From NCBI GenBank assembly GCA_021828285.1, contig JAKASG010000029.1, positions 1 through 33,420 of the forward strand: a stretch of DNA of 33,420 bases. The letters run 5' to 3'. Positions 1-23,799 of this stretch are shown in pieces (position 1 is the first letter of the stretch; every line of letters starts with the position of its first letter). Under the pieces are notes generated by a model. That model was not told where the DNA came from, made no database searches, and worked only from the letters and a program-made list of their open reading frames with translations. A program made the position numbers and the translations under genes. The DNA is from Acidobacteriota bacterium (GTDB lineage: Bacteria; Acidobacteriota; Terriglobia; UBA7540).

Positions 1-42
1 CAGCTTGAACTCCTTCGTGAACTGCCGTCGAGACAAACCCAT
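1..42 (-). CDS. Transposase OrfA N-terminus (partial, IS3/IS911 type)
   Basis: Fourteen codons are visible, starting at an ATG at 42 and running off the left edge. They read MGLSRRQFTKEFKL, the typical opening of IS3-family OrfA proteins, which are small helix-turn-helix DNA-binding proteins that work with OrfB (DDE transposase) through a programmed frameshift. A good Shine-Dalgarno sequence (AAGGGAG) lies upstream of the ATG, which supports this start. Nothing of OrfB or the frameshift site is visible. Confidence 0.65.
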   Translation of the reverse strand, partial: MGLSRRQFTKEFKL

Positions 43-17339: not shown

Positions 17340-19946
17340 TCAGGCGACCGCCGGCTCCATCACGCGCTCGACGACGAAGGCTTCGAGCACATCGCCGGTC
17401 TTGACGTCGCTGAAGTTTTCGAGCGCGATGCCGCATTCCATGCCGTTGCGCACTTCCGGCACGTCGTCCTTGAAGCGATGAAGCGAACGCGGCCGACCTT
17501 CATAAACCACCACATTGTCACGGAGCAGCCGGATTTTGGCTTCCCGATTGATCTTTCCTTCCGTCATGTAACAGCCCGCGACGGTTCCGACCTTTGAGAT
17601 GTGGAACGTCTCGCGCACTTCCGCCCGGCCGAGCACCGTTTCTTTGAAGACGGCCGCGAGGAGCCCGTTCATCGCTTTCTTGATTTCTTCGGTCACGTTG
17701 TAAATGATGGTGTGAAGCCGGATATCCACTTTCTCGAGCTGCGCCAGCTCCGTCGCCTTGCGTTCAGGCCTGACGCTGAACCCGACAATCACGGCGTTTG
17801 AAGCCGACGCGAGGAGCACGTCCGATTCCGTGATCGCGCCAACGCCGGCATGGATCATTTTGGTCTTGACGCGGTCGTTCGAGAGTTTGGTGAGCGTGTC
17901 GGCCAGGACTTCAACCGATCCCTGCACATCCGCTTTGATAATGAGAGGCAGTTCCTTGACCTCGCCCGCCGCCATCTGCTCGTGGAGCTGCTCGAGCGTG
18001 AGGCGCGCGGATTTGGCAAGCGCGGCCTCGCGCAATTTTGCCTGGCGATGGAGCGAGATTTGCCGGGCTTTCATCGTGTCCTCGATCGCCTGCAGGTGAT
18101 CGCCGGCCAGCGGCACGTCTTCGAGCCCAAGGACTTCAACCGGCGTCGAAGGCGGCGCTTCGAGCACCGGCGAGCCGTGGTCGTCAAACATGGCGCGAAC
18201 TTTGCCGTAATGCGCGCCCACAATGAAAGAGTCGCCCACATGCAAGGTGCCGTTCTCAACCAGCACGGTTGCCACCGGACCGCGGCCGCGATCGAGCTTT
18301 GCCTCGAGCACCGCTCCGGACGCCAGGCGTTTGGGATTGGCTTTGAGTGATTGCATGTCCGCAACCAAAAGAATCATTTCGAGCAGCAGCTCGAGGTTCT
18401 TGTGCTGTTTTGCGGAAACCTCAACCATGACCGCATCGCCGCCCCACGCTTCCGGCATAAGGCCGCGGTCGGCGAGCTGCTTGAGCACGCGTTCGGGTTG
18501 CGCTTCAGGCTTATCAACCTTGTTGATGGCGACGAGGATGGGCACTTTGGCGGCTTTGGCGTGGTCAATCGCCTCGAGGGTCTGCGGCATGACCCCGTCA
18601 TCGGCGGCCACGACAAGCACCACCACATCCGTCACTTTGGCGCCGCGCGCGCGCATGAGCGTAAAAGCCTCATGGCCGGGCGTATCGAGAAAAACAATCT
18701 TGCGGTGATTGACTTCCACTTGATAAGCGCCGATGTGCTGCGTAATGCCTCCGGCTTCGCCGGCGGCGACGCTGGTCTCGCGGATCGCGTCGAGCAAGGA
18801 GGTCTTGCCGTGGTCTACGTGGCCCATGACTGTGACGACGGGAGCGCGCGGAACGAGATCTTCGGGACGGTCCGCTTCCTCGACTTCCTGCTCAACTTCT
18901 TCTTCGAAACTCACGACCTTGGTTTCAGCGCCGAACGCGCGTGCGATGCCGGAGGCGGTCATTGAGTCGAGCGTCTGGTTGATGGTGGCGAAGACGCCCT
19001 TATCGAGCAATCGCTTGATCACGTCCTTGGCACGCACTTCGAGCTTTTCTGATAGCTCTTTAATACTGATGCCCTCGCTCAAAGTGATCGTGCGAACCAC
19101 CTTGGGCGCTTCAACCGGAGCGGAACGTGCCGGCGCGACCGCATGGGGCCGTGAATCATAATGAACCGGGCGAGCCGTCACCGGCTGATTTTGGCTTGCG
19201 GAAGCGGGGCGTGTTGCAGTTGGATGCATCGGCCGAGGTTCTCCGGGCCGCCGCGGCGCTGCGGGACGGCCGGCGATGCCTCGCGGCATTCCCGCCGCGG
19301 GATAAATGGGCTGATTGGATGCCGATGATTTCGCCGGACGCGCGGGCCGAGCGACCTTGGGTGGAGCAGAAGCGCTCGAAGATGCCGGCGCGCTCACGCC
19401 GGCCAGCTTCGCGGCCGCCGCCAGTTTCTCGCCAATCTCGGTCGTGGGAGCGGAATGAGCGACGTGCGGTTGCGGCGGCTCGGCTGGCTTTGCAGGCGCG
19501 GAGGGCGCGGGAGAGCGGCTCGGCGCCGCGATACCGGGTTTCACTTGTATTTCGTGAATGGCGGATGGCGGGGCGATTGCTTTTCGCGCCGCAGCCTTGA
19601 TCTCCGCAAGGGAACGCGTTAGAGGAGCGCTTGCAGGCCTGGGCGGCGCAGCAGGTTTTGGAGTGGGCGCCGGCGCGGGCGCAGGCTCACTCGCCGTTGG
19701 CGCCGCAACGGCAGGCGGAGGTGAAGGCGGAGTCGAAGCCGAAGGGCGCGCAGGCGCCGGCCGCTCGGCTCGTTCGACCGAAGCCAGCGCGCGGAAATGC
19801 GCTCGCACCTTGTCCGCAAGGTCGTCTTCGAGCGTGCTCGAGTGCGACCTCTTCTCGGTGATGCCGAGATCCGGCAGGAAGTCCTGGATGGCCTTGCTCT
19901 TGATCTCCAGCTCTCTTGCCAGCTCGTTAATGCGAATGCTTGCCAT
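17340..19946 (-). CDS. infB: Translation initiation factor IF-2
   Basis: The GTPase delivers initiator fMet-tRNA to the 30S subunit and promotes subunit joining. From the ATG at 19946 it is 868 residues. An upstream in-frame GTG at 20009 overlaps the nusA stop but adds 21 residues without family character; [15 protein letters not shown] is the standard start. Order: N-terminal IF2N helix domain, a long Pro/Ala-rich linker (about 60-280), a second IF2N-like segment ([21 protein letters not shown]), then the G domain with G1 GHVDHGKT (375-382), [20 protein letters not shown] and SAKQ, followed by domains II-IV. All GTPase motifs are intact. Confidence 0.96.
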
Positions 19947-20005
19947 GCGTTCCAAGTCTCCACATCGAAAGTCTGCCGGTTCAAATGCAATCCCGCGAGA
20001 GGGAC

Positions 20006-21484
20006 TCACTTTTTTTCATCTTCCAGCGGTGTTTCCGCGGACTCTGCCGGCTCGCCGGATTCCGAGGAAGAGGTCATCGCCGCTTCTGAGGTTTCGGCAA
20101 CAGCCTCGCCCTCAGTCGCCGGTGTTTCTGCGGAGGCCGTTTCAGCCTCGGCCTGCGGTTCGCCTGATTCTGCCGCCGCCTCCGCCAGCTCTTCTCCGGC
20201 TTCCTCCTGCTCGGCTTCCGAGCCCTTTTCGAAATAGTCCGTCACCACGCGCCGGATTTTTTCGACGGTCTTCTCGCCAATGCCCTGAATCTGGGTGAGG
20301 TCGTCCGGAGTCATTTGCGCGAGCTGTTCGACCGTCTCGACGCCGTGCTGCCGCAGGCGTTCGATGGTCTTTTCGCCGAGACCTTCGAGCTTTGACACCG
20401 GCGCGCCGCGCAACGCCATGGCGGCCATTTGGGATTCGATTTCCTGGCGCTTTTCCTCTTCGCTCTTGATGTCCACCTGCCAGCCGAGGAGCTTGGCCGC
20501 AAGCCTCACGTTCTGGCCTTTCTTGCCGATGGCGAGCGACAACTGCGTGTCGTCCACAATGACTTCCAAATGCCGTTCCTCGACATCAATGATGGAAACG
20601 TGATTGATTTTCGCCGGGCTCAGCGCGTTCGCGGCGAAGACCACGGCATCTTCGTTGTACTCGATGATATCAATCTTCTCGCCGCGCAGCTCGCGGATGA
20701 TGGATTGGACGCGCATGCCCTTCATGCCCACGCACGCGCCCACGCAATCCACGTCCGGATCCTTCGAATACACCGCGACCTTGGTGCGCTCTCCCGGCTC
20801 GCGGGCAATCGCCTTGATCACGACCGTTCCATCGTAGATTTCCGGCACTTCCATTTCAAACAGCCTCTGCACCAGCGCCGGAGCAGCGCGCGAGACGATG
20901 ACTTGCGGGCCGCGCGCGGCGCGATCCACTTGAATGATGACGACACGCAGGCGGTCATTGATCTGATAATTTTCAAGCCGCGACTGCTCGCGCCTCGGCA
21001 TGCGCGCTTCCGTCCTGCCAAGATCGAGAATCACGTCCGGCCCTTCGTGCCGTTTGACCGTGCAGTTCACCAGTTCGCCGATGCGCTGGCTGTATTCGGC
21101 GTAGACCGTGTCGCGCTCGGCTTCGCGCACTTTCTGGAAAATCACCTGTTTCGCGGTCTGCGCGGCGATGCGGCCCAGCACGTCCGTCGCTTTGGGAATC
21201 CGCACTTCCGATTCGATCGCAGCGTCGGCGTTGTACGTGTGCGCGTCATCGAGCGAGATTTCATGGTCCGGATCAATCACTTCCTGCACCACTCGCTTCA
21301 CCGCGAAGACTTCAACCGCGCCCGTATCCTTGTTGAAACGGGACTCGAGGTCTTCGGTGGTCTTGTAATACTTCCGCGTGGCCACCAGAATGGCGTCTTC
21401 AACCGCCGCGATGATGATCTGGGGGTCGATGCCTTTTTCGCGGCTCAATTGGTCGATCGTTTGAAAGAGCAAACTTGTTGTCAC
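20006..21484 (-). CDS. nusA: Transcription termination/antitermination factor NusA
   Basis: The 492-residue protein binds RNA polymerase and nascent RNA and modulates pausing, termination and antitermination. Order: N-terminal polymerase-binding domain (about 1-125), S1 domain (about 135-200, [19 protein letters not shown]), KH1/KH2 (about 230-345, with [14 protein letters not shown] and [14 protein letters not shown]), and a helix-hairpin-helix repeat ([16 protein letters not shown] and [12 protein letters not shown]). It ends in an acidic Glu/Ala-rich tail. It starts with GTG after a GAGG. The long acidic tail is longer than in E. coli-type proteins. Confidence 0.96.
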
Positions 21485-21603: not shown

Positions 21604-22203
21604 TTACCAGTCGAGAACCAACTTCGCTTTCGTGACGTTCGCCAGATCAACCTGCGCGGCGCCCTCCGCGCCGAGATCCAACTTGACGCGGCCGCTTTCG
21701 CAGCCGGCAATCACTCCCTCAAGAACCTTCCGCCCCGCCACCGGTTCCTTGAGGGCGATGCGTGCCTTTCGCCCTTTGAAGCGCTCGTAGTCGGTTTCCT
21801 TAACGAGCGCCCGCTCGAGGCCCGGCGAGGAGACCTCCAACAGATAACTGCCGGGGAAGGGGTCTTCGACATCGAGGATGGCGCTCATCTGCTCGCTGAC
21901 GCGCTGGCAGTCGGCGTGCGAAACGCCGCCTTCCTTGTCAATGTAAACGCGCAGCAGAGGATTCGACGACCCGCCTTTGACCTCAACGTCCACGAGCGCC
22001 AAGCCTTCAGAAATCGCTACGCGCTCCGCAATCGCCCGGATTTGATCGAGATCAACCCTGCCCAGCTTGAGACACCTGCTCTTCCGGCCGGCAATTCCAG
22101 TTTCACCAAGCCAAACAAAAAAGTGGGCATTAAGCCCACCTCTTAATTCGCCAAAAATAAGTATAACCGCTGGGGCATTCCGATTGCAAGCGGCTGTAAT
22201 CAT
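21604..22203 (-). CDS. rimP: Ribosome maturation factor RimP (start codon unresolved)
   Basis: RimP assists 30S assembly. The family region begins near 22056 (VDLDQIRAIAERVA) and contains LLRVYIDKEGGVSHADC, AILDVEDPFPGSYLLEVSSPGLER and RFKGRKARI, for ~150 residues of normal RimP. The only usual start codon in frame is the ATG at 22203, given here as the frame limit, but it lies upstream of the promoter hexamers (22160-22189) and its first 49 codons cross the leader terminator. The true start is probably downstream: candidates are an ATT (about 22095) after GGTGA, a CTG (about 22065), or the GTT at 22056 if it is a misread or mutated GTG. It is the first gene of the nusA operon. Confidence 0.9.
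   Translation of the reverse strand: MITAACNRNAPAVILIFGELRGGLNAHFFVWLGETGIAGRKSRCLKLGRVDLDQIRAIAERVAISEGLALVDVEVKGGSSNPLLRVYIDKEGGVSHADCQRVSEQMSAILDVEDPFPGSYLLEVSSPGLERALVKETDYERFKGRKARIALKEPVAGRKVLEGVIAGCESGRVKLDLGAEGAAQVDLANVTKAKLVLDW
22117..22139 (-). terminator. Intrinsic terminator in the rimP-nusA leader
   Basis: On the minus strand GTGGGC/GCCCAC form a six-pair stem with a five-base loop, followed directly by six T residues. It lies only ~15 bases after the predicted transcription start and before rimP, so it would act as an attenuator rather than an operon end. Confidence 0.75.
22160..22189 (-). promoter_or_regulatory. Promoter of the rimP-nusA-infB operon
   Basis: On the minus strand TTGCAA (22189-22184) and TATACT (22165-22160) are separated by 18 bases; the -10 matches five of six positions. 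The predicted start of transcription is around 22152-22154, immediately ahead of the leader terminator. Confidence 0.65.
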
Positions 22204-22223: not shown

Positions 22224-22751
22224 CTATACCGAATGGACAGCGGGGAAATGCGTGGGATCAAAAGCGGTGAAGTGCGCCAACCCCGTCCGGTCCGTCGCTG
22301 TAAGTTCCGCGCTGATGCCCCCTCGCGATAGCTTCACCTGGAAATATCCGGAATAAGCCGATTCTGCGCTGTGGGATTAGGGCGACTCGAAGCCTCTGAC
22401 ACTTTCTTCCCAATTTCCGCTGGTTGCGGTGAAAAACACGTCGCCTTCGTTCGGGCAGCCGGGACCGCTCATGTGAGTCATGCTGAAGCCGTGGATTTCG
22501 TTCTGATAATAGTGATAGCCGTAACCGTGTTCTTCCGTGTCGGGACTCAGCACCGCCATGCCGAAGGGCACGGTCGCGCGCCCGAAAAAAATGATGCTGC
22601 CGCCCGGGCCCTGGCCCTGGCCCCTTCGGATAAAGGGATCGACTTACGATGCCGGCCCTGCGATCGCGTGCGCGCCTTGCGCCTTCGTGCCAAAGGGCCG
22701 CGCGCCAACCATCAGAAGAATTCCCGCCGTCATCGCAATTGTTTTCTTCAT
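22224..22751 (-). pseudogene. GH92 alpha-mannosidase-like gene remnant
   Basis: One frame, read through two stop codons, gives a coherent N-terminal part of a family-92 glycoside hydrolase (secreted calcium-dependent exo-alpha-mannosidases). An ATG at 22751 with a purine-rich GGCGGGAA in front starts a signal peptide (MKKTIAMTAGILLMVG). After a TAA comes VDPFIRRGQGQGPGG, then ATVPFGMAVLSPDTEE, IHGFSMTHMSGPGCPNEGD and, after a second TAA, YSGYFQVKLSRGGISAELTA. All are diagnostic N-terminal GH92 motifs. The frame ends at a TAG at 22224-22226, far short of a full enzyme of ~700 residues, so the catalytic (alpha/alpha)6 domain is missing. Confidence 0.82.
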
Positions 22752-22908: not shown

Positions 22909-23799
22909 ATGACTGAACATTCGCAAGCGCGTCTTATCAGTTTCAAACCCCAGCACCCGTTTTTCGTGGGAATTGATTCCGATGGCTGCGTGTTCGACAC
23001 GATGGAGATCAAGCACAAAGAGTGCTTTATCCCCAAGACCATCGAACTTTGGGATCTCCAAGCGATTTCGAAATATGTCCGGCGCGCGGCCGAGTTCGTC
23101 AATCTTTACTCCCAATGGCGGGGAATCAACCGGTTTCCCGCGCTTACCAAAACGTTCGATTTGCTGCGCGACTGGCCGGAACCGGCGCGCCGCGCCGTCA
23201 AAATTCCGGAGGTTTCGAGCCTCGAAGCCTGGATCCAGTCCGGTGCGGCGCTCTCGAATCCCGCGCTCGAGCGTGAAGTTGCGCGCACACGCGATCCCGT
23301 CCTAGCACTGACGCTCGATTGGAGCAACGCGGTCAACCAGGCGATTGCGGAAATGGTCCACGGCATACCGCCGTTCCCGCTCTTTCGCGACTCGATGGAA
23401 AAGCTTGCCGGCCGCGCCGATATGATCTGCGTCTCGCAGACGCCGTCGGAAGCGCTCGAGCGCGAGTGGGCCGAACACGATATCGCGCGCTACGTGGCGG
23501 TCATTGCGGGGCAGGAAATGGGAAGCAAAACGGAACACTTGAGGATCGCGGCTCGAGGCAAATACGAACCTGACCGATTCCTGATGATTGGTGACGCACC
23601 GGGCGATCTCGCAGCGGCTCGCGGGAACGGCGCGCTTTTTTATCCCATCACTCCGGGCTACGAAGAGGATTCCTGGGAGCGGTTCCATGCCGAGGCGATT
23701 GACCGATTCCTGGGCGGCACATACGCGGGAGATTACCAGAAGGCTGTGATTGTCTCATTTGAAAAGCGGCTGCCTGCAACGCCCCCCTGGAAGCGATGA
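22909..23799 (+). CDS. HAD-superfamily hydrolase
   Basis: The 296-residue cytosolic protein is probably a phosphatase. Motif I is GIDSDGCVFDTM with nucleophile D23 and acid/base D25, followed by a long helical cap (about residues 40-155). Motif II is ICVSQTP, and motif IV is MIGDAPGDLAAARGNG with the magnesium-binding aspartates. The usual lysine of motif III may be in GSKTEHL. It is longer than phosphoglycolate phosphatase because of the cap, and the substrate cannot be told. It is divergent from the GH92 remnant and convergent with the protease gene, so probably monocistronic. Confidence 0.82.
   Translation: MTEHSQARLISFKPQHPFFVGIDSDGCVFDTMEIKHKECFIPKTIELWDLQAISKYVRRAAEFVNLYSQWRGINRFPALTKTFDLLRDWPEPARRAVKIPEVSSLEAWIQSGAALSNPALEREVARTRDPVLALTLDWSNAVNQAIAEMVHGIPPFPLFRDSMEKLAGRADMICVSQTPSEALEREWAEHDIARYVAVIAGQEMGSKTEHLRIAARGKYEPDRFLMIGDAPGDLAAARGNGALFYPITPGYEEDSWERFHAEAIDRFLGGTYAGDYQKAVIVSFEKRLPATPPWKR

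Follow-up and report, generated by a model that had tools for sequence, protein, structure and literature searches.

The window, by which we mean the whole 33,420-nucleotide stretch analyzed here from an Acidobacteriota genome, carries rimP, nusA, and infB in that order on the minus strand, preceded by a very compact leader. The features are as follows.

22184..22189, minus strand: -35 element TTGCAA; among 22 family members anchored on the -10 element, the first T reaches 2.0 bits and the consensus is TTGC.
22160..22165, minus strand: -10 element TATACT, near-invariant in the 22 family members.
22147..22153, minus strand: predicted transcription start region TGGCGAA, at a second conservation peak 7-8 nt past the -10 element.
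22123..22139, minus strand: putative rimP-leader terminator hairpin GTGGGC-TTAAT-GCCCAC, recognized by fold, conservation, and pairing, and extendable with A/G-U pairs to 22144-22118.
22114..22122, minus strand: U-tract with a distal interruption, TTTTTTGTT; the tail T6-[G/A]-T-T is conserved over 130 leaders.
21604..22065, minus strand: rimP (PF02576, PF17384), with a probable CTG start at 22065.
20006..21484, minus strand: nusA (Pfam NusA_N and NusA-like KH; S1 falls under its cut-off).
17340..20009, minus strand: infB (IF-2), by Pfam.

Read along the minus strand, the order is TTGCAA-18 nt-TATACT (22189-22160), GGCGAATTAAGAG, GTGGGC-TTAAT-GCCCAC, the U-tract, and then rimP-nusA-infB. The -10 element lies 15 nt from the extended hairpin and 20 nt from the core stem. 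This matches the original prediction, which described a TTGCAA-18-TATACT promoter followed within about 15 bases by a hairpin and U-run and then by rimP, with the addition that both elements are on the minus strand, which was left unstated. The start of RimP itself requires comment. The first ATG of the open reading frame (22203) is upstream of the promoter, and from the hairpin to the conserved part of the protein the RimP frame lacks any ATG, GTG, or TTG. A CTG at 22065 occupies the position of the ATG in relatives, so that RimP is predicted to start there, either through a non-standard start codon or because of an assembly error, both of which are possible. Farther upstream, between the rimP promoter and a divergent 296-aa ORF on the plus strand (22909-23799; no Pfam match at 0.001), lies a minus-strand remnant of a GH92 N-terminal domain with in-frame stops (22380-22750; PF17678, E 6e-17).

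Consensus matching on its own does not distinguish either element from chance: there were two promoter-like sites versus 0.8 +/- 1.1 in shuffles, and three terminator-like sites versus 4.6 +/- 2.7, neither of which is significant. We therefore used relatives as the test, and it is on conservation, rather than consensus match, that we take the promoter and hairpin to be real. Loci located through rimP were drawn from 41 genomes, leaving out one whose contig edge was too near upstream. The exact 6-bp stem and U-tract occur in all 29 loci with enough upstream sequence (28 relatives plus the window), and the gap from the -10 element to the stem is 17-22 nt in the window's family. In that family, the only conserved columns are those of the -35 and -10 elements, the start site, and the hairpin plus tail; DNA 5' of the -35 element is not conserved. 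This conservation supports well the proposal of a compact attenuator ahead of rimP-nusA.

Within the start region, a GG-GA patch lying 7-10 nt past the -10 element is conserved in the family and marks the predicted start site, with transcription most likely beginning at the GG at 22152-22151. Our literature search for start-site mapping in Acidobacteria found no paper. We also considered the conserved start region GGCGAACGCA as a NusA-binding site and dropped it; past the GG-GA of the start site, conservation is weak and mostly at the family level.

The leader RNA folds at -24.4 kcal/mol, versus -13.3 +/- 2.35 for shuffles (z -4.7). Of the 378 pair cells in 54 independently located leaders, 377 hold standard pairs and one a non-standard pair. 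Pairs 1, 3, 4, 6, and 7 have changed on both sides with pairing kept, and the stem sequence is conserved beyond what pairing needs. In many Acidobacteriota leaders the hairpin loop is a GNRA tetraloop (GAAA, GCAA, GCGA, or GTGA), and GNRA also predominates among the window's close relatives, but the window has TTAAT. In the tails of the 130 leaders, position 7 carries G (54), A (27), T (44), or C (5), which makes 81 with G or A; T stands at position 8 in 109 and at position 9 in 113. For Bacillus subtilis, interruptions in the distal U-tract are reported to characterize NusG-dependent terminators, which are akin to NusA-dependent ones (PMC8060035), and the interruption of the rimP-leader tail at U7 matches those of both classes.

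How specific is this arrangement to rimP? Judged by pattern search, GTGGGC-N2-8-GCCCACTTTT is found once in this genome, at the rimP leader. A one-genome-per-species scan returned at least 119 stretches from Acidobacteriota, Nitrospirota, Proteobacteria, Rokubacteria, Chloroflexi, and others; among the matches listed, rimP or nusA is downstream in 86 of the 106 loci that extend 600 nt or more past the motif. The strict pattern is present in 97 of 297 genomes of the phylum, and both rimP and nusA follow in 28 of the 30 such loci fetched. For phylum genomes lacking the strict pattern, we took 40 regions upstream of nusA. Of these, 33 contain rimP, and a hairpin search run without a shuffle control found a variant hairpin and U-tail in 26 of the 33, with stems such as GTGGGT..ACCCAC and GCGGCC..GGCCGC.

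By its sequence, the window element is the Acidobacteria copy of a known and very widespread attenuator, the rimP-leader, which Naville and Gautheret (2010) ranked as the most widespread bacterial attenuator (PMC2965389). The shared features with their description are the position ahead of rimP-nusA-infB; a GGGc(...)gCCC stem followed by a U-stretch (GTGGGC-TTAAT-GCCCAC-TTTTTT in the window); a terminator 4-130 nt from the gene start (about 50-60 nt from the predicted CTG in the window); and no visible antiterminator or larger conserved structure, the window's stem being preceded by just 14 nt or so of predicted RNA. What departs from the general form is the promoter, about 20 nt ahead of the stem here, compared with a reported B. 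subtilis leader of 180 nt. The Rfam model RF01770 (rimP; covariance-model cut-off of 47 bits) has no match in this genome and, among 14 control genomes, matches only E. coli; the wider Rfam search gave no other credible RNA family, only weak sRNA matches far under cut-off. RF01770 describes the gammaproteobacterial form, which shares the gene context and, in E. coli, a GGGC..GCCC hairpin and U-tract before rimP, but it is 102 positions long, and no second upstream hairpin is seen in the window.

The interpretation in the original prediction is partly supported. It had called the very short promoter-hairpin distance unusual. For the rimP-leader this is wrong: short spacing is standard within the window's family and also occurs in other phyla. 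Defining a promoter-like pair as TTG-16..18-NAnnnT within 115 nt upstream, with dinucleotide shuffles as control, we found one in 86 of 130 non-redundant rimP-leaders from many phyla (10.6 +/- 3.1 in shuffles). Sixty-six promoter matches end 5-34 nt ahead of the stem (3.7 +/- 2.1 in shuffles), and Rokubacteria, at 9 nt, and Nitrospira, at 13 nt, are tighter still. Many Alphaproteobacteria leaders have no such promoter, so the compact form, though common, is not universal. What is new here is modest: as read from sequence, a compact promoter-hairpin spacing, present in several phyla, with scant space for an antiterminator.

From the sequence, its conservation, its pairing, and its position, we infer a start site, a termination event, and control by NusA. 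A housekeeping-sigma promoter would start RNA at about 22152, and the GTGGGC/GCCCAC hairpin would be made after about 14 nt, with the stem beginning near +14 and the U-tract near +31. At about +38 to +40, polymerase would either release a roughly 40-nt leader RNA or continue into the rimP-nusA-infB operon. An alternative antiterminator is unlikely given how little RNA precedes the hairpin, and a protein acting on the elongation complex would be the simplest switch. NusA, which aids hairpin folding and pausing at interrupted U-tracts, would be the best candidate, such that high NusA would give more termination and hence less NusA. We consider it likely that this is a rimP-leader attenuator at a housekeeping-sigma promoter whose read-through would most simply depend on an elongation factor, with NusA the foremost candidate.

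Precedent makes NusA feedback the best, and a plausible, mechanism for the regulatory step. Naville and Gautheret (2010) named NusA as the best candidate effector for a rimP-leader without an antiterminator (PMC2965389), a 2025 review reports that B. subtilis NusA is autoregulated via NusA-stimulated termination in its own 5' leader (PMC12288461), and in E. coli NusA controls the operon that encodes it (PMC6511841). The leader of the B. subtilis nusA operon (Mondal 2016, cited in PMC12288461) likewise has an intrinsic terminator; it is longer, and a NusA response is shown for it, where for the window that response is a prediction. Counting against NusA control, no specific NusA-binding sequence was identified, the conservation of the stem could be due to another factor (NusG, RimP, or polymerase itself), and the extended hairpin and U-tract might terminate efficiently without any factor.

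There are rival explanations. The attenuator may be real with read-through set by NusG, RimP, a cold-shock protein, or polymerase-intrinsic kinetics. We regard this as unlikely, as the strongest precedent is for NusA and nusA sits in the operon, but several observations speak for it. The conservation of the stem beyond pairing needs suggests a recognized motif. NusG, too, promotes termination where the U-tract is interrupted and the base of the stem holds weak A-U or G-U pairs (PMC8060035), and A/G-U pairs make up the extended base of the stem in the window. RimP was also raised as a possible effector (PMC2965389).

It is rather improbable that the hairpin acts without feedback, as a constitutive down-regulator or a pause for factor loading. 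In favor of this reading, neither a sensing domain nor an alternative fold can be seen, polymerase could pause at a hairpin near +30, and the conserved U-tract would slow it too. However, six uninterrupted U residues after a GC-rich stem form the architecture of a terminator rather than a pause, and NusA autoregulation is known in both E. coli and B. subtilis. Least probable by far is that the hairpin merely blocks read-through from upstream or from the other strand and has no role in regulating rimP. Its A-rich and T-rich flanks make it partly bidirectional, but its plus-strand copy lacks a good U-tract, and the upstream DNA holds only the broken GH92 remnant and the divergent ORF. The promoter-hairpin arrangement is also conserved, and with the promoter upstream, its own transcripts meet the hairpin.

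Returning to NusA feedback, a more speculative version, which we hold to be possible yet doubtful, is that the terminator at about +14 to +40 is met during sigma-NusA exchange. NusA must replace sigma before the terminator, so read-through could gauge the rate at which free NusA loads. If true, the leader of about 40 nt would be a direct sensor of NusA concentration, and the spacing between promoter and hairpin would encode its setting: about 20 nt for the window's family, 9-13 nt for Rokubacteria and Nitrospira.

Altogether, the element is an Acidobacteria form of a very common, little-studied attenuator, whose minimal promoter-hairpin form recurs across phyla. A leader this short would make NusA feedback testable with a template of less than 100 bp, free of riboswitch-type folding.
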